Shown one piece after another: positions 15,299-46,949 of a stretch of 64,000 nucleotides of DNA (positions are counted from its first letter, which is position 1; each line of letters opens with the position of its first letter). Made by a program: the position numbers and the translations under genes. Origin of the DNA: Tetrahymena thermophila SB210 (Eukaryota; Ciliophora; Oligohymenophorea; Hymenostomatida; Tetrahymenidae); NCBI RefSeq assembly GCF_000189635.1, contig NW_002476426.1, positions 1,426,001 to 1,490,000 on the forward strand, in the 5' to 3' direction. The notes beneath the pieces are model-generated. The model ran no database searches, had not been told where the DNA came from, and worked only from the letters and a program-made list of their open reading frames with translations.

Positions 15299-18200
15299 AT
15301 GGCGGATGTAAGTAATAAGAAAATTAAGAAGAATTTTGAGGTAAATGAGGTAATGAATGTCTTCACTCTTAGATTCTTTGATAAAAACATTTAGAGTCAT
15401 TACTAAAAAAATTAAGAACGGTAACTAATAATAAATCGGAAAGTCCTTAAAGGTGGTCTCTTCCTTATAGGGTTAGGGTTTTTTATAGATAATATTTTAA
15501 TTGATTAGAATATAATCAAAAGTATCCAAATTAGTAGTATTCTTATCGTAGCCAGCATTTGCCTTTTTGTATTTGAAAGATTCATTTTAAGATATTTTAG
15601 TTTAATAATTACGATAATATGCATCACAATAACAATTATAGACTTATCATAAAATGATAACATAAAGGATATAGATCTTATTTATGAACATTTATGGGTA
15701 GTGTACAATAAAGGAATTATTTTAATGACACATGTAATTGTTGCTCTAAGCTGTGTTCCTGAATGGTACTATAGAACAGCAATCCTTGCTAGTTCTACTC
15801 AATTCATATTCATTGGATAATTTATTATAAATTATTATAACAACTGCATCTAAATTCAAGTAATATTTTTTATAGCAGTAGCAAGCTTTTATTTTGAGGA
15901 GAAAAGGGCTAAAAAAATGTATTATAGAAAGTAGATGAAGAAAAAAGAACTGGAAAGTTGGAAGCTTATGCTTGATTAAATTGTTCCAGTCTCTGTATTT
16001 GTTGTAAATAAAGAATCCTCTCAAATTAATTAAAATTCTAATACTACAACTCAGCCAATAAGCTAAACAAATATAATACCATAAAATATCAATTTAGATT
16101 AAGTTATAATGTAAAGTAAAATGAACATAGAGTTTATCAATAAAACTTGCTTAAAGACTTTCGATATATAATCAAAAGAAGAATTTTAACAGAAATTGAG
16201 GAAAATTTTAGTTAAAAAGCGATATACATAAAAGCATCATATAAACTTGAAGGATATCAAAATTGAAACTCCATCAAATTAAAATTAATTGATTGTGAGT
16301 CCTCTATTTAAAAGAAGTCCAAATTCATAAAATTCTTTATACCGTTAGGATATTTCCCTGAGAACATTTAATTACAGAAAAAATATTTAAGATTTAGAAA
16401 CTTACAGTAAAAACTTATTTAAGATTATAGAATAACTGAGAAATCCTAAGTAAAAGCTTTAGCTGCCAGTTTAATAAAATTCTATGAAAATAAATTTATA
16501 AGCTGATAGCATTAGCAGTAAATCAAATAACAACACTTTTTAAATACAAAATATACATCATGCAAATAATAGTAATAATTATCAACTAGATATGACCAAT
16601 ACATATGATAATCAAATAAATCAGAATCCTCATTTAAAGCAGCATTAGTATCTGAATTGCAAGTACATTACTTATATCAATTCTATTTAAAATGGAAGTA
16701 ATAAATAAAAAGAAAGAAAAATACAATACTATGATATAAGACTAATTGAAGCTGCATGGAACGGAAAGGATTCAATAATTGGAGTAATCACTGATGTCTC
16801 TGAGCAAGTCATGGCAGAAAGAAAATAAGAAATGATGTCATACAAAAACTCAGTCATGAATACAATTACTCATGATCTGAAGACTCCACTTAATGGAATT
16901 TAACTTATTTTAGGAAGTTCTCTTGAGGGTAACAAAACTTAAAAGAAAGAGCTTAAAGAGTCTATAAAAAATGCATTGGTGCAAGGTCATTTACTAGAAT
17001 CTCGAATAAATGATTTATTGGATTACTCTAAATTAGTGCATGCGGTAGAAGACTCATCAGATGTTAAAGTTAATATAGATAGCTTTGATATAAATGAGTC
17101 GATACTGTTTTGTTTATCTTTATATAAATAATCAGCTTGCAAAAAAGGAATAAATATCTTTTTTAATGATATAAATTTAATTTTATAGCCACCAGGCACA
17201 AAATTTCCTGTACTTATTAGTCATAACGATAAATAGCGATTTCAGTAAATTTTAATAAATCTAGTTGGAAATGCCCTTAAATTTACTTTTTAAGGTTATA
17301 TTAAATTATAGACTGAGGTTTAAAGCCCAAATGAGTTATAAATATCTGTAGTTGATACAGGTATCGGCATGCCTCAAAGTCTTAAGATTAATTTACAAGA
17401 CAAATCATAGAATTTTTAATTTGAAACAAGGTAGCCAGAAAAGAAAAATATGAGACATGGTAATTTTTTTAATTTTCATTGTGATTTTTTTAAATTAATA
17501 TTTTTGAAATTTTTCTTTTTTTAATATTAAATTGAATCTAATTTAATAGGAATCGGACTTGGGTTAGATGTAAGCAAAAGATTAATTAGATTGATAACTA
17601 AAGAAGATAGCTTAAGTGTTAATTCTGAGTAAAATCTAGGTACAACAATTACATTTAAAATGTTATTAAATTATGAAAATCCAGTATCTAAATAAATTTT
17701 AAACACAAATAATGAATAAAATAATTAAAGCTCAATCATTTCTTCTGTATAAATTTCAACAGAAAAATCAGCTTCCTTAAATTCAAACTATCATCTTGTA
17801 CCAATGTTTAATACTAAATTTATTGATAAAACTTAGCAAAACACTACTTTAAAGATTATGATAGTAGATGATACTAGTTTTAATATAATAGCTTTACAGA
17901 ATTACATTCAAAAAATACTTTAAGGAAAGTGTATAATTGATGTTGCCTATAACGGCCTGCAGGCTATCAATATTTATAAAAAAAGATTATAAGAGTAAAG
18001 AAAGAAACATCCCTTCTAATAAATTGTATTTTAAGAATCTGAGCTTCATAATAAATGTGATGTAAGTGAGTTTGAAAATTCTTATTTATCTGATAATATT
18101 GTAAATGATATCAATTGTTCAAGTGAAATGAACAGCTAAATTTGTGAAAGATACAAAAAAATGAGTTCATTAGGAAGAAAAGAAAATTTTAATTTAAAAA

Positions 18201-18466
18201 GCCCTTACGATACTATTTTTATGGATATAAATATGCCAATAATGGATGGATACTAAGCAATTACAACAATAAGAAACCTAGAAAAAAGCTGCGGTATGGA
18301 ATACCCATCTTTCATAGCAGTAGTAACAGCGTTTGGAGAAGAATGTGATAGATAAGATAGTATAAATATAGGTGCAAATTACCATATAACCAAGCCATTA
18401 AAGCAAGAATAATTAAAACTAATACTTGATTGCTGCAAAAATTAACAAATTCAAAACTAATTATGA
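15299..18466 (+). CDS. Membrane-bound hybrid histidine kinase with receiver domain
   Basis: Two exons (15299-17459, 17550-18466) encode 1025 residues. About five or six hydrophobic helices occupy residues 45-200. A linker of some 300 residues follows, possibly a degenerate PAS domain (LDQIVPVSVFVVNKE). HisKA carries the phospho-accepting His in TITHDLKTPLNG near residue 525. The ATPase domain has the N box LINLVGNALKF (about 653), G1 DTGIGMP (about 686) and, across the intron, G2 GIGLGLDVSKRL. A C-terminal receiver has acidic residues in IMIVDDTSFN (about 824), the phospho-acceptor Asp in FMDINMPIMDG (about 946) and the conserved Lys in KPLK (about 1001). The receiver is stretched by an insert of roughly 60 residues before the phospho-acceptor strand. 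It therefore probably autophosphorylates and passes phosphate to its own receiver. The signal is unknown. Confidence 0.93.
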
Positions 18467-19839: not shown

Positions 19840-22800
19840 ATGTCTCTCCGTTCAGGATCTAACCAGAAAAGGCAAGCTGCTTAAGAATAATACAATTAGG
19901 AGAGAGGTATATTGATAAATTTAGACTGAATATTGATGAATCTAATATATTTTGTGAAATAAATGATATTTTTAATATATTAGGGTTTGAAACTTTTCTT
20001 TAAGGAGCTAATCAATAAAGGTTATAGCAAAAAAAATAAATAGAAAAAAATGACCAAAGGGCTTTAAGCAAAGACAGAAAAAAATGGCAAGATTTATAGG
20101 ATTAGGCAGCTAGTAAGCAAAATTAACAGCAACAATAGCAATAGTAGTAAATTAAGGTAGAAAAAATAATTCATGAAGAATAATTTAATAAAGTTATAAT
20201 ATGATTAATAGGGCGATGCTCAAAGATAAAAATGGAATAAAATACCTCCATCTAAAGAGGAATACATGAAAGAGGCAAAAGTAATTAAGAAACATTTTTA
20301 GCTTATGAAAAAATATGTTCATTTTGTATTATGACCTAAAATTTTGTTTTATTTGTAAATTATTGGATAGAAATTTATAATTATTTAAAAAGGTAAAGCA
20401 TTAATAGTAGTTTGATAAAAACGATGGGGAGTAAATAATGAATTATCTTTAAACAATGGATAAAGCAGAATTAGAGATGTTAAGATAAAGTTTAGTGGTG
20501 CAAAATAACAAAAATTAAAAAAAAGGAGATTAACACTCTTCACCTAATAAAGCTATGATGGTAGAAGAAGATGAAATTTTAAAGCAATATTAATATAGCT
20601 AAGATGATGAGTAAGAATATGAAGATTTAGATAAATATAAAGAAGAAGGATATGATAATATTGAAGAAGAAATTGAAGAAAATACAGGAGAAAACTAAAG
20701 CGAATTATATTAACCTAATTTTAATGAAAGATCATATCACACATAATACTAAAATAATAAAAAGTAAATAAGTCAAAAAGCTAGACCAATATCAGCAATA
20801 TAAGCAAGTAGTAATACATATAATTCTTAACCAAATCAAAATTTAAAAAATTATGAATCTCATCGTAATTTTGTTACTAGAGATTCAAGAAATCAGTCAG
20901 ATGAAAAGGCAAATTAGAGAGAAATAGTTTACAATGAAGAAACAAAATAATTAAATAGTAATCCATTTAGTATGAAATCAGATGGTAGGAGATTATCTGA
21001 AAATTTTTAAAATCAAAATAAAAAATAAACAGAAGATTTTTAAGATTAAAATGAGCCAGTCTACACAAACATAGTATATTAGCAAGTAACTTACTATTTT
21101 ATTTTATTAATAAGCAAAAAAAATGTAAAAATATTTATGTATAGTAAAGAAAAAAAGAAGCTTAGACAGTTAAAAATTAAGATAGAGATAAAGATTTAGA
21201 AGATATTGTTATGAAGCTTTCAAAAATGAACTAAGGTACAAGACAGGAGTTAGTAACTTTGATTGATAAAATAGGTAATGGTGAATTAGATGTAAGTGCA
21301 ATCAAAAGTCTGTTGTTTATGTAAAATAATAATTCTAACTAATCTATCAACACAAACAAGAGCTAATCCGTTAAGGATCAAAGTTAGCATGGCAGAGTTT
21401 AGTCTTAAAATTATTAATCATCAACTGATTAAAAGGAAAAGCCTCCTTAATAAAAACCAGTATAAAATAAATTTAAAAATTATCAAGACGATATAAGTGT
21501 TAAGAGGGATTTATTTGGTGAGGAAGAAGCTAAGCCAGAAACTATTAAATTTTCTAGAGATCAATTTAGCATTTCACTTGCCAAAGGACTCCTTCAAAAT
21601 ACATAAGAATTAGAAAAGACGCTTAATTTAGGCAATGATGATTCTAATAAATAAATTTAAAAAGTTTCATTCACAGATCAATAAAGTAATTAGCAAGTAA
21701 AGTTAAAGCCTTAGAAAGTTATTGAAAAACTTGAAGAGACTTAAAACTCAGTAAGAGCTTAAAAATAGAAAAACTAAGTATCATATTAAAATCAAGACGA
21801 TAATAGCCGTTATTAATAGAATGAATAAGATTATAGCTATAAAACAAATTAAAACGATATTGGAAAATAGCAAAAATCAGAAATCAAGATTAAAGAACCT
21901 AATTTAAGCGAAGATGAGTACTTTGATGAAGATGATTTAGATGATGTACCTATTAATTAGAATTTTTACAATAAATTAAACAAAAATAAGCTTAAAGATA
22001 CTCTCTAATTAAAGAATTAAAAGGAGTAGATAATTCAGTTAAGTGATCAAAAAAAACCTAATGAGGAATTAAATAGCGAAAGGTCATTAAAGAAATAGGA
22101 ATCAAAATAATCTTAAGATAATAAAACTTACAATTTATCTAAAAATAGGGATAAAATTTAATAAATTTAACTAAAAGATATTAAAGAATAAAAGGGAGAA
22201 GTTTTTATTATCATAAGAGTAATATCTACTTGGGGATCTGCTCATTTGGTAGGTTTAACTGAAATAAAAGTAATTTAAAAAATTTTAAATCTAAATTAAA
22301 GAAATAAAATATTTTATTAAGGTTTATGACGAAGAGGGTTGCAATATAAAGATAAAGCCAGAGGATTTAATGATAGAAGGAGGTCTTTAAACTAGTTCAA
22401 GAAATATTTATAGAATATGTGATGGCGTTTATGATACAATTGATTCTGAACATATGTGGCTGGGTACTATGCCTGACCCTCCTAAATGCATGGAAATAGG
22501 AATTAAATTCAAGAGCAGTAAAGGCATAGGTGCACTTAGAGTCTGGAATTACAATAAAAGTTTGATAGATAGTGTTAAAGGTATTAAGGAAATTGAGATT
22601 ACGAGAAATAATAATTTAATCTGGGTTGGCTAAATCAAAAAAGGAATTGGAAAAGAATCTGAAAATTATGGGGACTTGATAAAATTTAAAGAAGATATTG
22701 TTTTAGATGATGAAAAAAAAGTTTTTCGAGTAAGCTAATAGCAGGGCGTGGTTCCTACAAAACTTAGTGCTAATATACCTAAAGATATAAAAAGTAGTAA

Positions 22801-25800
22801 ATAAGAAGAAAAACCTCCTGTGACTGAATCACTTAGCAAATTACCTCAGAAGAAAACAATTACTCCTTTGTAAGACGATGCTGATGTAAGCAAACAAGGA
22901 AGACATAGAGGAAGTAATCTTAATTCACAATCCTCAAGTACAACTCCCTAAGCATCATCTAGAATCAGATCTGCTCAGCAAAAACCATAGCCCAATTCGT
23001 AATCTAAAGATAACGATGAGCTTGATTCATAGCAGTAAATTTAATAAGATAAAACCTAAAAAAAGAGTGTTGTTAAAGACACAGAAGTAGATACATTATC
23101 TAAAGCACTGCAATCTAAGAATCAGGTATAAAAATCTGGCTCTATAATTGCAAGAACAAAAAATGAAACTGCAGTAACCAGTAGCAATACAAGCCTTTCA
23201 GGATAATCTAAATTAATAGGAGCATCTAGTTTCGAAACTTCAAAGAATAAACTTAAACTTGATGATAATAAAACTCCTAAATCTTAAACAGGTTCTGGTA
23301 AGACAACTCCTTCAAATGCTTTGCTGAATTCAATTAATTAAACATCTACAGAACCTAGTGTAGACCCTGCTTCTACAAGTAAAATCACTAAAAAAGGTCC
23401 AAAGGTTTTAAATGTATTTGAGGAAAAGCAAAAAGGTTAATAAATAAGCTCCTAAAGCTCTCTAAAAGACCCTTATCACAATGAAAGCCCTATATAAAAG
23501 AGAACAAATAGAATTGAATTCAAAGAAGATAGAATTGATTTGAACGAAGAAAAAAGTGATATTTAAATTTTTAAAAAGCTTGACTAAAATTAAACAGATC
23601 ATGAATTAAAAGACCCAAAGAAAAAATCAAGCGATGAAAGCAGCAGTGGCAAAGTGGATGATTTTATGGAGAATGTGAAATTTTTTAATGCAACCCATCA
23701 AGGTAGATTTTAGCCTGCTGAGAGGGAAAGAATACTTTAAAATTAAGCACAAGATGTTTAACAAGCTGTTAAGTAGACGCTCTAGAGTTTGAATCCATTC
23801 TTTTAATAAAATTTAGGCAAAAAGGGAATCGAGGATGATATTTAATTTAAATCAGAAGATGACAGTGGAGATTATAGTAAAATCGATGTTTTCATGAAAT
23901 AGAGCTCAAAGTTATAATAATAGCTAACTGCAAGCATCTAAAGAAACAATTAAGAAAGACAATCTTAATAAAATAAATTATCTAAACCTATTTTGCAAGA
24001 TGAAGATTCTCTTTTAGATCAAATTCTGAGGGAAGAAAACCAAAGTAATTTAAAAATTTAATAATGAGAAAATAAATTTATTATTTTCAAATAGGTGATG
24101 AAAAAGATTATCAAAAATAGTAGAAAATATTTGCTCCAAAAAGCCCTCAAGTGGAAAAACCAAACATCTTTTAAGAAAATAAGTAAATTGAAGCACCTCT
24201 CTAGACTTAAAACTAAGATATTTCAGCAAATTTAGATGACACTCGTCAATTTGAAAGGGAAATGAATAAGCTTTTAGAAAGTAAAAATAGTCCTTTCATG
24301 GGAGATATATTAAAATCTGTACAAAAAGAAAACAGGTAAATTGAGTAGTAAAATTTATAAATAAACACATAGCAATTTTAAATTCCTATGTTGCCTGAGG
24401 GTAAAAGTATAAAAATTGAAATTTATACAACATGGGGTGATAATTACTATGTTGGGTTGACTGGAATAGAATTTTTCGATAGCAAAGGAAATTTAATTCA
24501 GATAAGCAATCCAAAGAAATAAGTAAAAGCAGATCCTAGTGATATTAATATTTTACCAGAATATGGAGAAGACCCACGTACATGCGATAAGCTAGTAGAT
24601 GGTGTTTACCTCACTTGCGATGATTTGCATATGTGGCTAGCCCCTTACTAGTAAGGGAAGATAAATTACTTATATATAGACTTTTTATCAGTTCAAAAAC
24701 TATCTATGATAAGAATATGGAACTATAACAAATCACGTATTCATTCATTTAGAGGAGCTAGAGATATTAAAATTTTACTTGACGATGTTCCCATATTTGC
24801 TGGATCAATATAAAGAGCATAAGGTATATAATACTATGCTCCTCAAGACTGTGAGTATATTATGTTTACTGATAATGAGTCTATCATATAGTAGATAGAA
24901 AACAATGATTGGCTTAACAGATATTAGCTTACTGAAATAGAAGAAGAATAAAATGTTATTGATAAAATGATGTAAACTTAATCTCTTCAAAGACCAACTA
25001 CAGGAAACAATTACAATACTAACTCATAAACAAGTTTATCTTCTTAACCTCGTTCTTAAACAGGCAAAGATGGGCGTCCTATAACATCAGCAAAGACTGG
25101 GATAAATTAAATTACAAATCAGTAAGTTATTTATTTATTGATTGCATTTAACCAAAATAAATTAATTATTTTTTATAATGTATGATTAAATTCAGATAAA
25201 AAGGTGATGATTTGAATAAGAAACTAAATACAAAAGCAAATTAAATTATAGAGTATCAAATGAATTAAGGGACATAGAAATCTTTAAAAAGAGGAGTAAT
25301 TAATTGAAATTTATCATAAAAGCTAATTTATTTAAATTAATAAAAAGATTAAATGCCAAAAAATAAAAATTTTCATTCATAAATCATGGGAAGATAAATT
25401 TTATGTCGGCTTGACTGGTATAGAAGTATATGGTAAATTATTACATTAAAATTAAGCAAGCAAAGATAATAATTATCATTTAAATTTCATTTTAAAGATG
25501 AATATGGCTAAAAAATACCTTTGAAGGAGAGCTAATTAAAAGCTAGACCAAAGGACTTGAATGAGATATCAGGATACCATGGTGATCAAAGGACTTTGGA
25601 TAAGTTAATTGACGGTGTAAATTTAACCACAAATGAAAAGCATATGTGGCTTGTATAACTCTTAGAGTAGCCTTAAAATTATTTATAAATTGATTTTATG
25701 GAAGAGAAAATCATTTCTGGAATAAAAATATGGAATTATAACAAATAACAAAGCTATAATGACTGCAAATCTGTAGATTAGTATAGAGGTGCAAAAATTA

Positions 25801-27001
25801 TTTCTATAGTAGCAGATGAAAATATCTAAATTACGCCTTAGCAAGGTATTCTTTTAAGAAAAGCACCAGGAAGAGATTTGTTTGATTATGGATAGATGAT
25901 TGCTTTGCCTTTTGAAAGTGGATGGACTTAAGAAGTAATATAGAGTCTACAACTACCTACCTAAGTCAACAGCTAAATCATTTAAGTAAAATTAATTTTT
26001 AAATAACAACATTAAACTTGTAAATATAAAAAGGAATACGATACTCTTTATTTACCAAGAGGTTTCTGTTTTCGTTTTAATATTCACTCTACTTGGGGAG
26101 ATGCTCACTACTGTGGCCTAAATGGAATAGAGTTTTATGATTCATTTGGTAATCCAATCATCTAAAAAAGACTTGCCGAATTTAAGCTTGGAGCTGAACC
26201 AGCATCTGTAATTTTATATTTTAATAATGAAATTTTTTATTTATTTTGTGAAAAAAATAAATAAATAAAAGTTTTTTTATCAAACATTCATTAATTCATT
26301 TTGTTATAAAATAATTTTAGGTTAATATACTTCCAGGCTGTTAAGGAGATATAAGAACAATAGATAAATTAGTAAATTGCTAAAACGATACCTTTGATGA
26401 TAGAAATATGTGGCTTGCTCCTTTTATAAACTCAAGAAGTGACAAAAATGTAATATGCCCTCATTTAAAAATGAATACGATATATTTGTTCTTTGAAAAA
26501 CCTGTAATTATTTCTGCAATTAATTTTTGGAATTATTCCAAAACACCTTCTCGTGGAGTAAGAGAAATAGAAATTTTCTTGGACGACAAGCTTTTATTTA
26601 GAGTAAATTTTATTCAAAAAAATTTTGAATTAATTTAAAATTATTAATGATACCTAGGGTTATCTGAAGAAGGCTCCCACATAAGAATAATACACTAAAG
26701 ACTCTGTACCACTTTTTAATACAGTTATTTTTAATAGAAACTAAGAAATTCTTCAAAAAATAAAACCTGTTGTATATAACGAAGATAGATAGCAATAAAA
26801 TGTTATTTTCTCAAATGAAGGAAAAGTAAATTAAAACCTTAATAAACAATTGACTTGATATTTTTAATTTAATTATTTTTAAACAAGGTTGAAGGAGGAA
26901 GCAAAACATAATTGCAAATGCAGCCTTAGACTCAGAATGATGCTTCCAACCATTTAGTAAGACCTCAAACTAAAGTTTCTGGAATGAAACTTATGCAATG
27001 A
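19840..27001 (+). CDS. KATNIP: KATNIP-like (katanin-interacting, DUF4457) ciliary-base protein
   Basis: Thirteen exons (19840-19906, 20005-20156, 20212-20280, 20393-21085, 21145-22269, 22322-24044, 24095-25121, 25278-25432, 25498-25985, 26034-26207, 26321-26602, 26658-26825, 26888-27001) sum to 6237 bases, 2078 residues. The DUF4457 module appears four times, beginning about 22220, 24420, 25370 and 26090. Each has TWG or SWE, GL(T/N)xIxxYD, a (V/I)(D/N)G-type element, an HMWLxP-like motif and xWNY(N/S)K. Long Gln/Ser/Asn-rich linkers separate the first two copies; the last three are nearly contiguous. Human KATNIP (KIAA0556) binds katanin and microtubules at the ciliary base and is mutated in Joubert syndrome. 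The homolog here is inferred to act at basal bodies or cilia. The acceptor of intron 7 is the least certain join; it was chosen because it alone restores frame. Confidence 0.9.
20127..20150 (+). repeat. Polyglutamine run with mixed codons
   Basis: Within exon 2 of the KATNIP-like gene, eight successive glutamines are encoded by CAG, CAA, TAG and TAA in mixed order, so the run is not a simple nucleotide repeat. Confidence 0.85.
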
Positions 27002-33531: not shown

Positions 33532-36500
33532 ATGGATAAAGAATAAGAAAAAGATATTGTTGTGGATAAATAATATTTAAATCCAGACTAGTTGATTTCA
33601 TACTGCTCGAAAGAAAAGTATACTATTAAAATAGTCTCGAGCGATGTACCTTTTAATAATCTACTTGTTTTGAAAGATATTTCAATCAAAACTAAGGGAG
33701 ATGATGAAGATAAGATATTTGCAGAAAGCCATTTCTTGCACAAAAATGTTAGAAGAGGTAATACTGTTTTAGAAGTTTTGAATAAGGACAAGTAAGTTGA
33801 AGAAAGATATATTGCCAGAAAGGGTCTTAAAAAGTTTTTTGACGTATACTTAGAGTATCTAGATTTAGATGAAGTAGAAAAGGTTTCAACTTGGGTCAAT
33901 AAAAACAAGCATTTTGGCAAGCTCAAAGCTTTAACAATTGATCCAGTTCAAGAAGTCTTCTCTAGAAAAGAAGCATTTGATGTGCATATTTATAAACTTG
34001 GAAAAGCAAACGGAGAAAATGCACAAGTATTTATTTCTTTGTTTTTATAATTTTTTATAAGCTATTATAATAAAACGAAAAATATTAAATTTGGAAAGAT
34101 AAGATTATTTAATTAAATTTTTATGTTAATAAATAGATTAGTTATATTAAAAAATTCGATGCTTGGGTTGTTTCCTCTAAGAATGTCAGCATGCTTATTT
34201 AGAGCAACAAAAATGTATAGATCCCTGATGAATAAAGATACGGTTTTACCAGATTGATTTCTTAGGTTTGGATTGAGTTCGTTAGAAGATTAGAGGAATA
34301 AAACCCTCAATTATTAATAGAATTAAAAGAATATTTAGATGGTAGAACTTTTGTTGGTGAATATTGTGGTAATTAAGATTATTAGCACCTCGTCAAATAT
34401 GATAAAATTGACTTACATTTTTATGCAGTGGTTGAAAATAATAGTCGTGAAACTTGTATTCCCACTGACATAGCATACCAAATTTTTGAGAAGTTTGGAC
34501 TTACAAAAGTATAGGTTTCTAAGTTAACAGCTCATTCATGGAAAGAATTTAATGATATTGTATTTAAGTTATACAAAGAAGTTGGATCTTCACCAATAGA
34601 ATAAGATGGTGAAGGTGCTGTACTTTATTTCATTAGCGAAAATAGATAGACTTAAGAATAGCAAGTTATTAGTTTGTGCAAGTTAAAGACACTAGACTAT
34701 AGAATATTTAGAAAATTAAGAGAAAAGCTCAAAAATTGCCTAGTTGATAAGAAGGGTAGTGGATCAAAGTGGTTTAAAAAGTTTGAAAAAGAAGTTCTTG
34801 AGCTTTGTGAATTCTGTGAACCAGCTCACGAATTAGACTATTATAACACTATAGCAAAAACAGCTTTTGACTTTATTGAATCTTCTTTAAGTGCTAAGCA
34901 TAGAAACATGGTTGCATCGAGATACATAACATTCTTAGATATGATTAAAAAATCTATTGATGAAAAGGTTGAAATAAATTTGAAGTTTTTGAAAGAATAC
35001 TTTGAGTCTGTTCCAATGTAGGAGGGTGAAAAGAATATCGGTAGTGTTCTAAATAACACAAGAATTATTATTGTATCACCACCTTTTTACCTAACTGAAA
35101 AGTTTTAGAAGGATATATGTGAGGCTTTACATATTACTAAAATAGGAAATTCATGGAGGGAAGGCCACTCAAATGTAGATTTAATTGCTGTAGATAATAT
35201 TCATATTCCTCCAAGAATCACAGCACAAAGATTGAATAAGTTTAATATATTTGTTTTCATTGGTTTTAATGAAAAACGTATGGTTTACCTTAAAAACTAA
35301 ATTGAAGTCCTTAAAATAAAAGCTGAAAGTTAAGAAGAGTTATCTTATACTAAAGCAAATTCATTGAAAAATATATTCTCAACAAATGCTTAAAAATTAA
35401 AGGAGATAAAATAGAACTCAAAGACCTTCCTTCCTAATAATTCTTTATTCCTTGATGATATCTATTAATATTCTGACGATAACCTAAGTATTGTTAATGA
35501 AGAAGAATCAAACCAAAAGCTTTTGTAGATTATTACATAAGCATATTAAAAGAAAGTAGATGAAATGATGAATGCCAAGCTCAAAAAGTTTGAAGTTAGC
35601 GATGATTTGCAAAAGAATGATAGCCAAGAGGAAGAAAATTAGGAAGATGAAGAAGAAAAGAAGGAAGAAAGTGACGATTAATAGAATAAAGAAAAGGATA
35701 GTTAAAAAAAGTAAAAACAAGCTAAAAAGACAACTGATACTAAATAGAATTCCACAAAAAAGAATGTTTTGATTATTGTTCCTATCACAATACCTGCTAC
35801 TGGAAAAACAACTTTCTTTAATGAAATTATATAATATTTCGAAAAAGAGAACAAAGATATAAAAATTCATTACCAATCAAGCGATATTATTAGAAAATAG
35901 ATAATGGATGAAATTTAGCAAGGAAATCCTAATCAAAACTATACTTAAGATGAATTATTTTAAAAATCATCAAAAAAAGCAACATCAAGATTTTAAAGTG
36001 CTGCAGTAGATTTAATTGATTAAATTTAGTATGAAGAAGCATAAAATCATATTGTTATATTTGATAAAAATCATCCTCCTTCTGCTATTTAAAGCACTAT
36101 CCCATTCATTCAAGAAACAATGCCTAAAAATGTTAACTATAAAATAATTGCTCTCACTCCTAAAGTTTTGCAAACTCACTCAACAGGAAATAGTGATTAC
36201 CCATTCTCAGTTACTTACTTATTGAATTGTATTGATAGAAGTGTTAATAGAGACACTCATGAAACTCTAGTAGGTGATACTTCTAAATTAGCTGGAGTTG
36301 TTTTTATGTTTTTCAATTTATACAGAAATATTAAGTTTTCAGCAGGCCAATTACAAAAAATGGGCTTTTAAAAGTAAATCTAAATAACTTTCCATTAAGA
36401 GAAAAACGATTCAGATTCAAAAATCAATAACAAGTTGCTAAAAAAAGTAGATTAAGTTCTTATGCAAATTAGACCTTAAGATGATTTCGAACAGTCACCC

Positions 36501-36623
36501 ATCATTTAAGAATTCTTAGAAGTATATTATAGTACATAACTATAATTTGAAAAAGTAGAATTTGATGAGCAAAAAACAGAATTTATAAATCAAATTGAAG
36601 AAATTTTTAAGTCTTTCAAATGA
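33532..36623 (+). CDS. Plant/fungal-type tRNA ligase (adenylyltransferase + kinase, no CPD module)
   Basis: Two exons (33532-34026, 34137-36623) encode 993 residues. Residues 1-370 form a nucleotidyltransferase-type RNA ligase. Motif I has the adenylated lysine in GKANGENAQ (about K158), followed across the intron by FDAWVVSSKNVS. Motif III is FVGEYCG (about 237), IIIa DLHFYAVVE, IV DGEGAVLYF (about 320) and V CKLKTLDYR (about 346). A helical region and a Lys/Glu-rich linker (about 640-705) lead to a P-loop kinase: VPITIPATGKTTF near 716, HYQSSDIIRKQ, IVIFDKNHPP near 807, and then YPFSV...GVVFMFFNLYRNI, recalling the kinase region of Arabidopsis RNL. It would phosphorylate 5'-OH ends and seal exons, as in tRNA splicing or HAC1-like mRNA splicing. 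The protein stops about where the 2H phosphodiesterase domain should start. Assignment rests on remembered motifs. Confidence 0.82.
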
Positions 36624-37914
36624 ATAAAAAAATACTGAGAGATAATTATATTCTTAATTGAAAATTATAAAAATAAGAAAATAAAAATAAATAATATAAA
36701 ATAAAATATTTAAATGTTTATTAAATCTTTAACCTATTTTTGTATTTATTCTGTCACTTTTAATTAAAATTTCATTTTAAAAAAAGCATATTTAACTTAA
36801 AGTATCAAATACATTTCTTTTCTTTTGTTATATAACCATCAGCTATCTTGTTTATTTAAATATTAAAAATAATGATAAAACATTCAGTAATATAGTAATA
36901 TGACTTAATTAACTTCGCTTAACCTTTATTCATTTTGAAAACATTTTTTAGAAAAAATATATTACAAACCAATCTTTTTTAGATTATTATTTTATTTTCG
37001 ACCTATTTTATTTTTAAGCAAATTCTAATAACTCAAATTTATTAAATTTTTTTTTATTAACTCTTTCTTAGTTTATTAATAATGTAATTATATATGATGC
37101 AAAATATTGTTAGTCCAAATAATAAATAGCACAACATAATTTCTTGATAAAAAGGATTCTCATTTACTTTCAAGCATTAATGAACTTGCTTACTTTATTA
37201 GTAACTATTTTCATTTGCATGTTATTTATTTTAATTTTACTCAGTGCTTGTATCTAAATATTTTATAGAGCATGAGAAACATCCTTTACTCATACAATGA
37301 TCTTATGAATATTATTAACATTCCTTTTAATTCTCAGAGCAGAGTTAAAATTAATTACAACATAACTAGTTACAATCATTTATTATTTGCATGTTTTCTT
37401 TGCTACAAATATCTTGATTTTAGAAGGCGGATCCACAAATTAACACCAGTCCAAAAAGTATTTATATGCATAGGAATCTCATTAATTAATCTTGATTAGA
37501 TTTTATGTTTAAATTTAAAAGCTGTTTTTAAAAAATTAATTTAATTATTTCAATTAAAGAAAATCTGACTCACATTATTTTTAAAAAAATAACTTTAATC
37601 TTAAAAAAATTCAAGTTTTTTTAATATCCAAGTGTAATTTATAAAATAATTTTGAATTAAAAAAAAAAAGTAAATTATAAAAAAATATAAAACAATATTT
37701 GCCTTATAAAAAAAATTGAAAGAAATAAATTCCTTTAAAAGACAGACAACACAAATTATTTTTTTTACAAAATTAATTAATTTTTATTATGCAAACAAAA
37801 TATTTTAAAAATATAATTACTAATTTTTATTTAATTTATGAGTTTAATAAACATTTTATTTAGTATTAATTAGTATTTTCTTTGATTAATTATACTTTTA
37901 TTTATTAAAGAAAA
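36624..37914. other. Convergent intergenic region with one small open frame
   Basis: About 1.3 kb between the stops of the tRNA ligase (+) and CFAP57 (-). Mostly AT-rich; the stretch 37100-37500 is somewhat less so and holds the candidate frame listed separately. Confidence 0.5.
37272..37568 (+). CDS. Candidate small ORF, unknown
   Basis: With the ciliate code the frame runs from ATG 37272 to TGA 37566-37568, 98 residues, and stays open upstream to a TGA at 37095. It reads MRNILYSYNDLMNI and includes a Cys/Phe/Leu-rich hydrophobic patch (LLFACFLCYKYL) and a basic RRRIHKL. Composition here is a little less AT-rich than the surrounding flank. No domain is recognised. It could be a small gene, one exon of a larger gene, a decayed copy, or chance. 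Confidence 0.25.
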
Positions 37915-40900
37915 TCACTTTCTTGAATATTATCTTTATTCTGCTTGATATATATTATCATCACTTGTATCAATATCTTATTGTTAAAGTGGTATAAAAC
38001 CACCCTGTTCTTAAGCTTATAAAGCCATGAGCTCCTCTTCAAAAGCAATATCATTACATGCTCTGTCTATTACATGCTTATGTATCTTTCTACGGATAGA
38101 CTTAATAAGCACTTCTTGTTGCAACAGTTTTTAAGTATTTAATTCCATTTCAGCTGTCATGTCCATCATTTTAGCCTTGTCAAATATAGCGAGTGTTTTA
38201 GTATCGAAATTCTTTCCTCTGCAAATTGTACCTTTTTATCCTATTTTCATGCTTTGAGGACGTTAATTAGATTGAACTTATCCCTATGATTGTGAGAAGA
38301 AATTGTTTCTTTGAGTCTATTATACTGAATTAACATTTTAACGTTATTCGTCATATTGCTGTTATTGCATTTATTAGGCAGGTGGCAATTACATCATATT
38401 ATTATTTTTTTTGCTACTTCCTCCAGGTCCCCCTAATTTTAACTTTTAAATCTCTGTCTTTAGATTAGCAATTTCCTTGATGTATTTATCTTCTTTCATC
38501 CTTAAGTTTAGAATCTAACTTTAGAACTCTTTATTTTATTTTCTCATGTCATTTAAGTCATAAATAAGCTCAGCATTTTCTTTAGTTTTATTAAATATAT
38601 CTTAGTAACGTCTATCAAGAAGTTTATTAGAAGATTCACTAATCTACTGTATTGTTTTATTTAAATGCTAAATTTGTCTACCCATTTCTTATACACCCTT
38701 GTTATCATATTACTTCTGTTTGTGTTCTGTCTTCAATACATATGTTTGATATAATTTTTGCATTTCTTGAGCCAGCTCTTTAGGATCCTATTTGGTTTGG
38801 AATTAGTTTAATGATGAATTAAAATAGAAATATTTTTACTTGCTTGTAGGTAACACTATCATGTATTTCCATAATTATTTTGTTCAGTATATTCTCCTTC
38901 TACTTAGTTAATTCTGTTTGAAGTTTAAGATTCTTGTTAAGATTTTCAATCTAACTTTGCATCTTTTTCATTTTATCATTTCTAGCTTCAGATACCTTAA
39001 GGAGACCTTCAAACTCGCTTTCTAGCTTGCATAACTACTCTTTTTATTTCTCAATTTATTCTTCCTTTGGTTCAAGAGACTTTCTCATTTCTGTTGTACG
39101 GAAAGATAGAACATGCTTAGATTTTTAAAGATCATTAATTTTATATTTATATTCATGTATTTTCTTCTCTTTCTTCTTCACTAAATCTTCTAAGCTTATA
39201 ATGTCTTTCTTCAAAGCTTCTATTTGATTACTGGCATCAGTAAGTCTACTTTTTTAATATTAAATTTCATTATCCTAATCTTCAATTTTTTTATCTAAAC
39301 GAGTTATATTTTCCTTAGCTTTTTTATTATCTTCATCAAATTTATTCTTCTTTTCCTCAGCCAATGCAAGGTCTTTTACAAGTTTAGTGATTTCTTTTTT
39401 ATGATTTTCATTGAGATCTCTAATTTCTTGTTCATGTTCTTCTTCTTACTGAGCTAGTCTTTCCTCATAAATTTTTCTTAAATCATCAGCGGTTTATTTA
39501 GTTGAATCATACACCTAATTAAATAAATAAAGTTGATTAAACTAGTTTTAACTTTTATTTAAAAATAAATTGAAATTACTTTTTAGGCTTTTTAAAAATT
39601 ATCATTAAATTCATATTTTAAAGAATTTATATTATCATCATGCTTTCTTTCAATTTCTTTAAGCTTCTTCTCAAATTTCATTCTTTCTTCAATAAGCTCC
39701 TATTCTTATTATAAGAATTTTTCATTTTCGAAGGCTAGTTTTTTTTCATATAAATTTTCTAATTCCTCAATAGCCTTTAAATGTGTCTTTTCCAGTTCTT
39801 TTAATAATCCTCCATGCTCTTTTTCATTTCTGTTCTTTTGGAATTTAAGATCCTCATATCTTTATTCATACGATTTAATTTCTGTTCTCATTTTTGTTTC
39901 CATTTCTTTAATTTCTCTCTCCATTTTATTTTTTTCTTCTAAAGCCTAGATTTCCATCTTGTTTTCTAAATTTTCATATTCTTCCTTAAGCTTTTTTTAT
40001 TCTCCTAAGTAAACATCTATTTCTTATCTTTCAACAAGTACAACATCTGCTAATTTCTCGTCGACAGCTATCTTCAAATCTTTATCTAATGCAGTATCAT
40101 TTTAATCTGCTTTGATTGAATGTCCTTCGGCGTTTAATTCAGAAACTTTAAAAATGAATACACTACCATCTTTTCCTCCTGTAAATAAAAATCTTCCATC
40201 TTTACTAGCCTATAAATTAATAATTAAATAAATAGTATTTTAAATCAATATATTTTTAAGGAAATAAATAATTTACTATTATATGGGAAACCTATCCGTT
40301 GTGGGTAGGAATGCTATCAAATGGCTACTAAGCAAACAAGCTAGGATAAACTCTAATTTAACCAGTAGAAGTACCTGCAATAATACCAGTTGTGTTGTAA
40401 ATGCATTTATTAAAAGTAAAACTAGATATATGATAATTTTTAATTATTTATGTATCACAGATTTCATCCCTATCATCTCTAAATCTAACTGTTTAAATAT
40501 ATCCTCCTTTATTTACATCATCAGGACCTGTTACCATGAGAATACCTTGAGGCTCATTATATAACATGCTCTAAAGCTTCACATTAGGTGTTTTTAGCTT
40601 TATATCTTTCTTTTCCCATGAATCTGTTGTATAAACATAAATTTGACCATCTTCTCCACAGCTATAAAGCTTTTTATCACCTTTCGTCCAAATTAAGTCA
40701 GTAACTGCTCCAGTGTGTCCTTTAAGGCATGTTATGTTTTCAAGGGTGTAAGCATTATAAATATTTATTACATAATTCACACTTTTCTTTCCAGTTTATA
40801 AGGCATTTGAGTTTTAAAATTGAGAATTTGTACTAGTGCCAGCTCCACCCATATTTGCACCTTTATTAAATTTAGATATAGGAGAACCAGCAGCTATATA

Positions 40901-42995
40901 TTAACCACCATTAGAAAATCTAATTATAGTACAATTTTTCACAGAAATTTCTCTATAAGTACGAAGTTTATCATTCAAGACATGATACATTCTCAGTTTG
41001 TCAAAAAAACCAGCTGCTAAATAGTAGCCAGTTGGATGAAAAGCTACAGATAAAAGTACCTACCTGTTTATTTCATCATTATTTAAGCTAACTGGGAATT
41101 TTCTTGCAAGCTCACACTTATATGATGCATAGTTCCAAATAATAATTGAATTATCTTAGCTGCAACATGTTACAAGCAAAGGACGCTGAATACAAACATC
41201 GATAGAAGAGATTGGTCCATTATGAAATCCTTTATATAAATAATCGAATTAAACATCTCTCCTGTCTCTTTAATTATGATCTCTCTTGAGGGCTTTAATA
41301 TTTTATGGAACCTACTGAATTACTTTTGTTAAATCTAAAGTAGCTATTTGATTATTTTTAAAAGCAATTACAAGCAATTCTTCATTTGAGCTTATGTCCA
41401 TTCCAGACACACCACTAGCTTTTTTATCACTCCATTCTTTGAGATAATGCAATTAATCAATAAGTTAATTTTTTTCCTTTCCTTAAGCTCCACTGTAAGG
41501 CAAGTCAGGATCTTCTGCCTTCATCCAAACAGCGAAATTACCAGCTTCACATCCAACAATTAAACCTTTTGAGAAAGGAGTAATACAGTCTATAGGAATT
41601 CTTTCATCTCTATCTTCAAGAACCCTCTATATATGTCTATTTTTTTTTTAATTTAACAAAAAAATAAATATCTATCATAAAAATAAATTAGGAGTCTTCA
41701 AAAAATTTATAAAAAATCTTAAAACATTTTGATATCATTGCAACAGTTTAAGTAATTCATTTAAACATATTCTTAAATTTTCATATTTTATTAGAATCTT
41801 AAAATCTAATGTGAGCTCTTTTAAACTTTTCAAATGAACATAATTCTTATTTGAAAAATAGATAAAGCTTTGAATAATAAATATTTACTACCAACTTTAA
41901 ATTAACTTGAATGATGATGGGTGGATTGATGCTAAAATTTATTTGAGTAATAAATAGCTATCATCTACAAAATTGATCATTTTTATTTATGATAAATGAA
42001 TTTAATTTATTGAAGCTATTATTTATTAGATAAAATCATGGCTCTACTCTAAAATAGAATTAAAAAATTTATCCAAAAATATCTTGTATTTGTCATAAAG
42101 ATGACGTTTTAATAGAAGGAAATTAGGGCATAATTATTTACTGTTTAACTTCAGAGTCTTGTATAATAAATATTTCTCCATATGATGTAGATAGAGCAAT
42201 TTTATCATTATCAAACCAAACAGCATCAGTGTATATACAGTTATCTTTTTTTTTAGGCATTCTCTTTATTTCTTAAGTTATAGGAACAAAGCTAGATTCT
42301 TGTATCCTAACAATCATAAAAATTTCAGGACCTAAAAGGGCAACTTAATGAGAATCTTTAGGAGATACTGAAATTTTATTTATTTTTAATTCATTCTCTT
42401 TTTAAGGTACATCTCTTAGCCTTTCTTCTAAAAACGCTGATGCAATTTCAATTTCTCTTTTATTTGAATTTAAATCTAAGAAAATAAGTTTATATTCTGG
42501 GTGACCAGTAAGGCAAGCAAGGTACCTGCCATCTGATGAAAAGCTCAAAGCAACAAATGAGCTCATTTGTGTATCCTTATCATATATAAAAGACCTGTTT
42601 TCAACCATTTAATTTTTTTTATCTGATAAACTATAAATTGCCAAAAATGGTCTTGGCTGACTTGAATATTTAGATTAATAATGGTATTGGTCTTATTATT
42701 GTTCAGAAGCATCTTACTAGTATTATTTTTCACAAACTGCAGCAACCATCTTTTTAGTGCATATAGCCATGCTGACAATGCTTTCAGTTTTTTCATCTAA
42801 CTTAATGAAATTCATATCCTAAAAATCAATTTATTTGACAGCCAAATACTGACCAAGTGGAAATACTACTTTTCTAAAATTTTCTTGATCTAATATGCTA
42901 ATACAATTTCTATAGCCTTTGCTGCTAAGTGAACCAAAACCATGAAGTAAATCTAGTTTAAGTCTTCCTGTTATATCTTTATTTTTATCAATCAT
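37915..42995 (-). CDS. CFAP57: CFAP57/WDR65-like axonemal protein (WD repeats + coiled coil)
   Basis: Five exons (42995-42142, 41636-40277, 40209-39580, 39514-38840, 38787-37915) give 1463 residues. The N-terminal half, about residues 1-770, is WD40 propellers: FVALSFSSDGRYLACLTGHPE, VAFHPTGYYLAAGFFDKLRMYH, IIRFSNGGQYIAAG, LKGHTGAVTDLIWTKGDKKLYSCGEDGQ and FLFTGGKDGSVFIFKV. Residues about 800-1330 are almost continuous coiled coil rich in Glu, Lys and Leu. A basic/Gln-rich tail with IKSIRRKIHKHVIDRACND follows. CFAP57 family members help assemble and place inner dynein arms, near dynein g/d, on the 96-nm axonemal repeat of motile cilia. The human homolog is about 1250 residues, so this one is longer, mainly at the C-terminus. 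The start is the first ATG of the frame. It is divergent from the EF-hand gene. Confidence 0.92.
41637..42141 (-). other. Long intron 1 of CFAP57
   Basis: A 505-base intron with a GTAAAT donor and an AAATAG acceptor. The join EVK-Q-HIQRVLED is in phase 2. It is AT-rich and no embedded RNA or gene was recognised. Confidence 0.8.
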
Positions 42996-43689
42996 TTTTA
43001 AAACAACTAATTAATTACTCTATTATACAAACTTGCTAATAAATAAATAAATCAATAACTATTTGTTTGCTTATTAATAAACTAAAAAACTTTTACTGCT
43101 TAAAAATATAGAAAAGCTTAAATTTCTTATCTATATTTTAATTAATTAATTTTTTTTTGAATCTTCGTTGGAAGAAATGTTAAATGATTTAAGATATAAA
43201 CCTATAAATCACCAATACCTAAATTATTTAATTAGTTATTAATTTTGCATTATAATAATGTATAATAGTAACAGTTTTAAATATTAATTTTGAATTTCTT
43301 TACGAAGATATAGTAAATACTTTTTATCTCCTTAAACAATATTTATCTATTTATTTATTTATTTATTTTTTTAAAAGAGTATTATTATGAAAAATAATTT
43401 TATAATTAAATTTTTCTAATTTATTTACTAACTTTACAATATTTATGATTGATAAATGATGAAATTTTTGATATTTTAAAAGACTCTTTTTAATTTCAAA
43501 GATGTTTAAAAATTTATATTCTGAAATATTTTTTCTGTTAAATAGGTATGTAGAAAGGAATTTTAATGTTACAAAGTATATTAATTAAAGATTAAATTTT
43601 TGATAACTAATTAACAGAATTAATTTATCAAATAATAAAAAGTAGTGTTTTTTATTTTTTTAAAGAAGTACAATCATTTAATATAAACA
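42996..43689. promoter_or_regulatory. Divergent intergenic region, CFAP57 / EF-hand gene
   Basis: About 690 bases between two divergent starts, likely a shared promoter region by position. A (TTTA)n run lies near 43347. No motif is identified. Confidence 0.4.
43347..43369 (+). repeat. (TTTA)n microsatellite
   Basis: About five TTTA units followed by a T-run, in the divergent promoter region. Confidence 0.85.
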
Positions 43690-45311: not shown

Positions 45312-46949
45312 TCAACCAGTTATTTCTTAGTTTTTCTTGAAAATAGCCATTCTCTTTTCTAAGGAAGAATCGACTTGAGAAGCTTTCTTGTCTTCGTACT
45401 TTTAAGCCCAAGCAGTAGCTTCTTTTTCTAAAATTCTTTGTTTAATAAGATTTTTATCAACTATAAAGCCCTTAGCCTATTTGTAAAAAAAAGTCATTAA
45501 ATTTTAAATTACAAGTTTTATTGCATTTATGTTTATTTTTAATATAATAATTATGGATGATGGTATGTATAAATTTTTATATTCCAAAATACTCGGATTG
45601 CTGTATAATTTATGGCTAATTTATTTTAATATTTAGAAATTTATTTAGTTAATAATTTAATTATATCCTAAGCTATTAATCATCATTAAAATTTACCCAC
45701 AATTAAAATTTTAAATTTAATGATTTTTCTAATAAATTCTTTAAATTTGGAAAAGACTGAAAAAATAAAAAAGCCACTCAAAATACTTTCTATTAATTGA
45801 ATTAAATTAATATTATCTATTTTAATATTTAATAGTTTTATAAAATATTTTCATTAAATTTATTTAAAAAATTAAGTTTTATCTAATTGCATGCAACCTT
45901 TCTAGAAAAAAATATTATTATTTTTAAACATGTTTGCTTTTGTAATGTGATAGCAGCTACTTTAGATTATTATATCTTATGAATGGATGAATTAAATAAA
46001 TTAAAAAAAATATTTTTACCTTGAATTATAAGTATTAAATTAAAACTTTTCTCTTCAACATAAGCTTTCTTTGTTGACGACCCTTGGATGTTAAAACCCA
46101 TTGATTTTCTCTAATTTCGTCATAGTCAGCATTTTCGCTTACCATTCTTTAACGCATGGCATAAGCAAGAACGGGTGCAGTCTTACCTTCAAGCATTTCT
46201 CTGTATAATTATTTAACTGGCTTCTCATAAAGGATAACTTTAATTGTTGAAGTTTATCTATGCTTGATACCAAATCTACCTCTAGCATGATAACGTAAAC
46301 CCATTCTTTTTTTCTTTCTACCAATAATAACACCATGGATAAAAAGACGATTGAGATCCATTTCTTTGAGTTTGGCAACAGAAATAGTTTTAGCAATAGC
46401 TTAAGCAATCTATTCTGAAGCTTTTGAATGGATATTAGAAAGGATTGAAAGAGCATCGTAAGCATGCTATTTACGAATGGCACGAGCAGGTAAGAATAAT
46501 CTCTTAATTGAGTTTTCAACACTTTTTGTATATGATTCGACAGTAACAAGAGGTTCACGAGGAAGAACTTTCAAAACAACTGGATCAGTATACTCCTATG
46601 GGTTTTTAAATGTATATTGAGAAATAACTTGCTGATTCTTTTCTTCGTTAGTATAAACATTAGAGTTAATTTTAACTTTTAAGAAATTGGCAGGATTCTT
46701 ATCATTTTATGAAAGATTGTTTATTTAGAGTTAAGAGATGTTTTTCTTTCTTTCTAATTCCTTAGCTTTTTTGGCTTCTTCGTAGTCTCCATATGTGTTC
46801 TTTAATTCATAGTATTCTCTGTCATTTACAGTGTTTTTGAAGACCTTTTAATTTTCTACTATAGTTTAATTATAAGAACGCATAGAATAAATAGGTCTAA
46901 AACTTAGCAGCATTGATTTATTAAATTATTTTAAACTTCTTGTAATCAT
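45312..46949 (-). CDS. Mitochondrial large-subunit ribosomal protein uL22m
   Basis: Two exons (46949-46020, 45476-45312) give 364 residues. The uL22 domain spans about residues 140-240: LPARAIRKQHAYDALSILSNI, then a long AIAKTISVAK helix, the extended loop LFIHGVIIGRKKKRMGLRYHARGRFG, and IKHRQTSTIKVILYE. In bacteria this loop lines the peptide exit tunnel. The N-terminus (MITRSLKQFNKSMLLSFRPIYSMRSYN) is basic, hydroxylated and free of acidic residues, a mitochondrial leader. The extra roughly 110 N-terminal and 120 C-terminal residues are typical of enlarged ciliate mitoribosomal proteins. The second exon is read after a phase-0 join (YLQFK|AKGFIVDK). The L22 family call is firm; the mitochondrial location is inferred from the leader and the divergence from cytosolic uL22. 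Confidence 0.88.
45477..46019 (-). other. Long intron of uL22m
   Basis: A 543-base AT-rich intron with a GTAAAA donor and an AATAG acceptor. No embedded gene is seen. Confidence 0.8.

Follow-up and report, generated by a model that had tools for sequence, protein, structure and literature searches.

A ligase-kinase gene of Tetrahymena thermophila with probable Trl1/RNL ancestry and no recognisable C-terminal cyclic phosphodiesterase module

On the forward strand of a 64,000-nucleotide stretch of the Tetrahymena thermophila SB210 genome (contig NW_002476426.1; hereafter the window) we found, at 33532-36623, a reading frame that carries the motifs of an RNA ligase followed by those of a polynucleotide kinase, shows remote homology to the Trl1/RNL family over both modules and contains no recognisable cyclic phosphodiesterase (CPD). 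We consider, with moderate confidence, that it encodes the tRNA-splicing RNA ligase of T. thermophila, a protein of Trl1/RNL ancestry that consists of a ligase and a kinase module, has no C-terminal 2H-type CPD and would depend on a separate CPD acting in trans. The gene itself is presumably already annotated in the Tetrahymena genome.

Translation with NCBI table 6 (the ciliate code, in which TAA and TAG are read as Gln) yields a product of 993 residues from two joined exons:

33532..34026, + strand: exon 1, residues 1-165, with the N-terminal region and ligase motif I (K158), from the code-6 reading frame; coding-score segment 33529-34029
34027..34136, + strand: putative intron of 110 bp, GT..AG, 12% GC, phase 0, as read from the DNA
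34137..36623, + strand: exon 2, residues 166-993 and the TGA stop (36621-36623); coding-score segment 34155-36617

The coding sequence includes 51 in-frame TAA or TAG codons (33 and 18, respectively) and a single TGA, the terminal one, and its GC content is 28% as against 17% upstream and 19% downstream. The splice model is a prediction from the DNA, and the alignment to the fungal segment NGCIIFISGL continues across the putative join, at which NGENAQ is followed by ISYI. All the ligase and kinase motifs named in the original prediction are present in this translation and could be assigned positions, those of the ligase module being as follows, together with an HFYAV block at residue 259 and the segment CKLKTLDY at residue 346:

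34000..34020, + strand: ligase motif I, GKANGEN (residue 157), with K158 as the predicted adenylated lysine, opposite K148 of C. thermophilum Trl1 (CtTrl1) in the alignment
34359..34388, + strand: ligase motif III, EYCG (residue 240), and His249, by alignment the counterpart of the sulfate ligand His227 of CtTrl1 (role of His227 as given in PMC6592678)
34611..34631, + strand: ligase motif IV, EGAVLYF (residue 324), by alignment
34677..34724, + strand: ligase motif V, CKLKTLDYRIFRKLRE, in which Arg357 and Arg360 correspond by alignment to Arg334 and Arg337 of CtTrl1

The ligase module went unrecognised in sequence searches of Pfam, NCBIfam and the PDB, and PF09511 gave no match. Hence the proposed assignment to the Trl1/RNL-type ligases and kinases obtained no family match in these searches, but it was upheld by remote comparison and by conserved residues; likewise, the profile search suggested as a check matched no tRNA ligase, kinase or 2H family in Pfam, whereas remote profile comparison did support a Trl1-like ligase and kinase. 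In this comparison the window sequence alone was aligned with HHalign to small fungal profiles of two chains each, derived from PDB alignments. The fungal Trl1 structures compared were PDB 6N67, 9R3W, 9QW7, 5U32 and 6U00, of which the last four are presumably fungal, in part as judged from identity. The first, 6N67, is the C. thermophilum enzyme (PMC6592678). As positive controls a fungal ligase chain matched PF09511 at 2.9e-74 and a fungal kinase chain PF08303 at 3e-58. Against the fungal Trl1 profile the ligase module scored 28.6-28.8 (E 0.0025) over 104 columns, a score reached by none of 60 shuffles (best 22.2); the highest value among 27 other proteins of the window, each cut to its first 400 residues, was 20.9, and T4 Rnl1 gave only 13.6 against the same profile, while the HHalign probability of the match was modest (12-13%). 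Identity to the fungal ligase is 24-25%. Thus an N-terminal ATP-dependent ligase with motifs I-V, as found in Trl1 and RNL, is recovered both by its motifs and by a score above all 60 shuffles and all 27 controls. Taken together with the kinase comparison below, these results suggest that the two modules are remote homologues of those of Trl1/RNL. A single-sequence AlphaFold model of the part of the ligase encoded by exon 2 was poor (pLDDT 38.2).

In CtTrl1 a sulfate is bound near the active site by Asn150, His227, Arg334 and Arg337 and is interpreted as standing for an RNA phosphate (PMC6592678). It reportedly mimics the terminal 2'-phosphate. In our alignment all four of these contacts are kept, as N160, H249, R357 and R360, and the motif I lysine K148 corresponds to K158. 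Over the 11 active-site positions of CtTrl1 that were mapped, six are identical and E149, K169, H182, H241 and R305 differ, although the status of Lys169 depends on the alignment, this residue standing opposite Ser179 in one and opposite Lys180, and hence kept, in another. His182 corresponds to His148 of the yeast enzyme, which is described as essential (PMC6592678). The ligase would, on this pattern, still seal 2'-phosphate/3'-OH ends. Two consequences had been drawn from the missing CPD, namely that healing is done by a separate protein or that the enzyme seals different ends. The first of these is favoured over the second, given the retention of the residues that form the putative 2'-phosphate pocket. 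Under one form of the second, the ligase would have turned, after loss of the CPD, to ends with 2'-OH/3'-OH, the product of healing in the T4 pathway; this would agree with a chain devoid of CPD and with the alterations at the other active-site positions. We regard it as quite improbable, given that the equivalents of N150, H227, R334 and R337 are all retained, whereas T4 Rnl1 shows no RxxR over 24 residues counted from motif V (T4 record).

The ligase module is followed by an inter-module region (residues about 480-600, about 35079-35441), whose scanned part matched nothing in Pfam, and by an acidic, lysine-rich linker (residues about 640-706, about 35559-35759), whose weak match to DARPP-32 (E 0.02) is probably spurious. 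A degenerate 2H domain hidden between the ligase and the kinase was considered and rejected, as the HIT at residue 497 is not joined by another HxT/S ahead of the kinase and a stretch of 84 residues around it found no match in Pfam. The kinase module, which also contains an FDKNHPP element at residue 807, comprises the following features:

35760..36557, + strand: polynucleotide-kinase module, about residues 707-972, with a profile match over 710-929 and the remainder by global alignment only
35778..35810, + strand: P-loop VPITIPATGKT (residue 713), aligned with the fungal counterpart VPIATIGCGKT
36198..36263, + strand: YPFSV block (residue 853) and NRDTHE, with R870 and H873 set by global alignment against the fungal QRGDNHQ

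The first P-loop position is neither Gly nor Ala, as had been noticed, being Thr (T716); since both of the fungal chains compared carry Ala there, this is a small change. Against the fungal Trl1 profile the kinase scored 37.6 (E 6.5e-5; HHalign probability 64%) over 173 columns (residues 710-929), with 20-27% identity; none of 60 shuffles reached this score (best 18.2), and 25.6 was the most that any of the same 27 proteins, again cut to 400 residues, attained. The central P-loop polynucleotide kinase of Trl1/RNL thus has its counterpart here over these 173 columns, above 60 of 60 shuffles, though the match leans on the P-loop, as without it the E value drops to a non-significant 0.16. Beyond the P-loop, R870 and H873 preserve the Arg and His of the fungal QRGDNHQ block, and the Arg of the fungal DRNN is replaced by Lys. 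Compared with a provisional plant RNL sequence, the post-P-loop part reached a Smith-Waterman score of 71 (0/500 shuffles, best 60) and an HHalign score of 29.9 (0/100 shuffles, best 19.3). In Pfam the best kinase match was 6PF2K at 3.6e-5, below Pfam's curated cut-off, and PF08303 was not matched. A single-sequence AlphaFold model of the kinase was poor (pLDDT 51.6); a Foldseek search with it retrieved P-loop kinases, for example an archaeal phosphoseryl-tRNA kinase (3.5e-4), and no Trl1 among the best 50 of 617 matches, so that the predicted structures lend weak support to a P-loop kinase.

The kinase alone does not single out Trl1, because it scored nearly as high against T4 Pnkp (34.0), in an alignment of 21 columns in the P-loop region; T4 Pnkp itself gave 30.7 against the fungal kinase profile. 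The score of 34.0, and a two-module layout reminiscent of the T4 repair enzymes, a kinase and a ligase (two separate genes in T4), would fit a different role, in which the ligase-kinase repairs or circularises RNA and the tRNAs are spliced by RtcB or another enzyme; both RtcB and Trl1 are present in Trypanosoma brucei (PMC10598085, PMC8718801). We hold this to be rather unlikely, as the retained pocket of the 2'-phosphate type suits ends made by a CPD, and as Trl1, not RtcB, is described as the main tRNA ligase of T. brucei (PMC8718801). Relatives of the ligase-kinase were not found in the viral contigs, prokaryote genome contigs or phages searched.

Returning to the ligase-kinase as a tRNA-splicing enzyme without CPD, its chain ends at TGA 140 residues past the YPFSV block, just as originally reported. 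Global alignment, which carries no significance test, extends the kinase over its final helices as far as the fungal end YKPT/YKPD and leaves little sequence behind it, and the DNA beyond the stop has these features:

36558..36620, + strand: the final 21 residues or so, beyond the aligned fungal kinase end, where the fungal and plant enzymes enter the CPD, by global alignment, with a provisional plant sequence
36636..36638, + strand: second in-frame TGA, four codons past the first, from the DNA reading
37033..37482, - strand: convergent ORF of 149 aa, Cys-rich, hydrophobic at its N terminus and over a C-terminal stretch, without Pfam match and not among the coding segments kept

The figure of 21 residues was counted by eye, the alignment having set the last three residues of a fungal chain at the very end. 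The window chain ends near residue 200 of the provisional plant RNL fragment, in which the CPD match begins at 211, this C-terminal part matching PF08302 (CPD) at 1.9e-12. In Pfam the C-terminal 297 and 108 residues matched neither CPD nor LigT nor any further 2H family at E values up to 10; this negative is weak by itself, since Pfam misses the ligase and kinase modules too. It is for the same reason that the case for absence is built on chain length and on the downstream DNA. The C-terminal 2H CPD of Trl1/RNL with its two HxT/S motifs has no counterpart in the chain, and the claim that no such pair follows the kinase was borne out: the three HxT/S occurrences lie at 497 (between the modules) and at 846 and 873 (inside the kinase). 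The last 110 residues come out as helical in a model of low confidence.

Because the gene end was read from the DNA alone, a CPD could in principle have been missed on a distant 3' exon, after a programmed frameshift or through an assembly error at the 3' end. However, TGA recurs in frame after four codons, and no HxT/S-hydrophobic motif occurs in any forward frame from 36624 to 37915 (1.29 kb). On the opposite strand lie the ORF at 37033-37482 and, from 37918 to 43007, coding segments which probably form one gene, and among the non-overlapping coding segments kept by a simple codon score none lies on the forward strand between 36617 and 43711. With a second TGA, no motif and only opposite-strand coding segments, it is unlikely that a CPD is reached by a 3' exon, read-through or frameshift, and we give a missed CPD, taken over all its forms, very little credence. 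Both the CPD module and a downstream 3' exon thus appear to be lacking, as had been predicted, and the 2H CPD module is, on the evidence of the DNA, absent from the ligase-kinase gene. Nor was any 2H family matched, at E values up to 0.001, by the 32 other coding segments of the window or by the small ORF.

As to these neighbours, the 149-aa ORF is possibly a small secreted or membrane protein. Within the opposite-strand series, the segment 40289-41629 is CFAP57-like with WD repeats; its best chain is 8glv_Cp (3e-37), and because the chains of 8tid score below this (8e-27 and 3.6e-24) it may be a divergent paralogue. Further segments encode a hybrid histidine kinase with HisKA, HATPase and response-regulator domains (15656-18409, + strand), DUF4457 matches in three coding segments (22319-26210, + strand; presumably KATNIP-like) and an L22-type ribosomal protein (46044-46859, - strand), which matches chain Aw of PDB 6Z1P without a single difference (272 of 272 residues); we take 6Z1P to be the T. 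thermophila mitoribosome, and the use of the ciliate code is in keeping with this source.

Intron-containing tRNAs are reported to exist in T. thermophila, which therefore needs a tRNA ligase, and in yeast the modules of Trl1 can be separated without loss. We propose that the splicing endonuclease would leave 2',3'-cyclic-phosphate and 5'-OH ends, of which the former would be opened to 2'-phosphate/3'-OH by a separate cyclic phosphodiesterase and the latter phosphorylated by the kinase module of the ligase-kinase. The ligase module would then adenylate itself on K158, move the AMP to the 5'-phosphate and seal the ends, recognising the 2'-phosphate via N160, H249, R357 and R360, and this phosphate would be taken off by a 2'-phosphotransferase of the Tpt1 type. 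The activities of both modules, the need for a 2'-phosphate, the CPD partner and the tRNA substrate are thus predicted from the conserved residues and the layout of the gene. More tentatively, ciliates of the Tetrahymena type might possess a third eukaryotic architecture for 5'-phosphate tRNA ligation, in which ligase and kinase are fused and the cyclic phosphate is opened by a different, possibly non-2H enzyme, maybe shared with other RNA-processing pathways. Among the open-access matches listed, none dealt, by its title or the start of its abstract, with a ciliate tRNA ligase of the ligase-kinase type.

The likeness to fungal Trl1 extends to the order of ligase and kinase, the KxNG of motif I, the EYC/ELC of motif III, the EGxV and KxK..Y..RxxRE motifs, the four sulfate contacts and a kinase that can be aligned to its end; unlike fungal Trl1, the window protein has no CPD and a long acidic linker, and its counterparts of His182 and of the Arg in the kinase DRNN are changed. 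With the provisional sequence of Arabidopsis RNL it shares an alignable DKN(A/H)P element, the NPYS/YPFS block and the AG.V..MF..LY block, but the plant chain runs on into a part matched by the CPD family of Pfam. Ligase, PNK and CPDase occupy one chain in yeast, Arabidopsis and T. brucei, and the lancelet has a ligase plus a PNK/CPDase (PMC10598085), the yeast, plant and lancelet layouts being given in agreement by PMC3400036. Accordingly T. brucei Trl1, although like the window protein a protist tRNA ligase of the Trl1 family, differs in its ligase-PNK-CPDase chain (PMC10598085). Pnkp and Rnl1 of phage T4 likewise combine a kinase with a ligase and have no 2H domain (its absence in T4 according to PMC3400036), but T4 uses two genes and its Rnl1 shows no RxxR over the 24 residues after the start of motif V. 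A parallel in the distribution of healing and sealing over more than one polypeptide is offered by BfRNL and BfKinase/CPD of Branchiostoma floridae (PMC3400036, PMC10598085). In the lancelet, however, the cut falls between the ligase and the kinase-CPD, with the ligase alone and the kinase-CPD on a second chain, whereas Tetrahymena keeps ligase and kinase fused in one chain and it is the CPD that is missing. If our reading is correct, a ligase-kinase without CPD would show that the CPD boundary is an evolutionary break point too, and a genetically tractable ciliate would allow a direct test of which protein opens the 2',3'-cyclic phosphates in Tetrahymena tRNA splicing.
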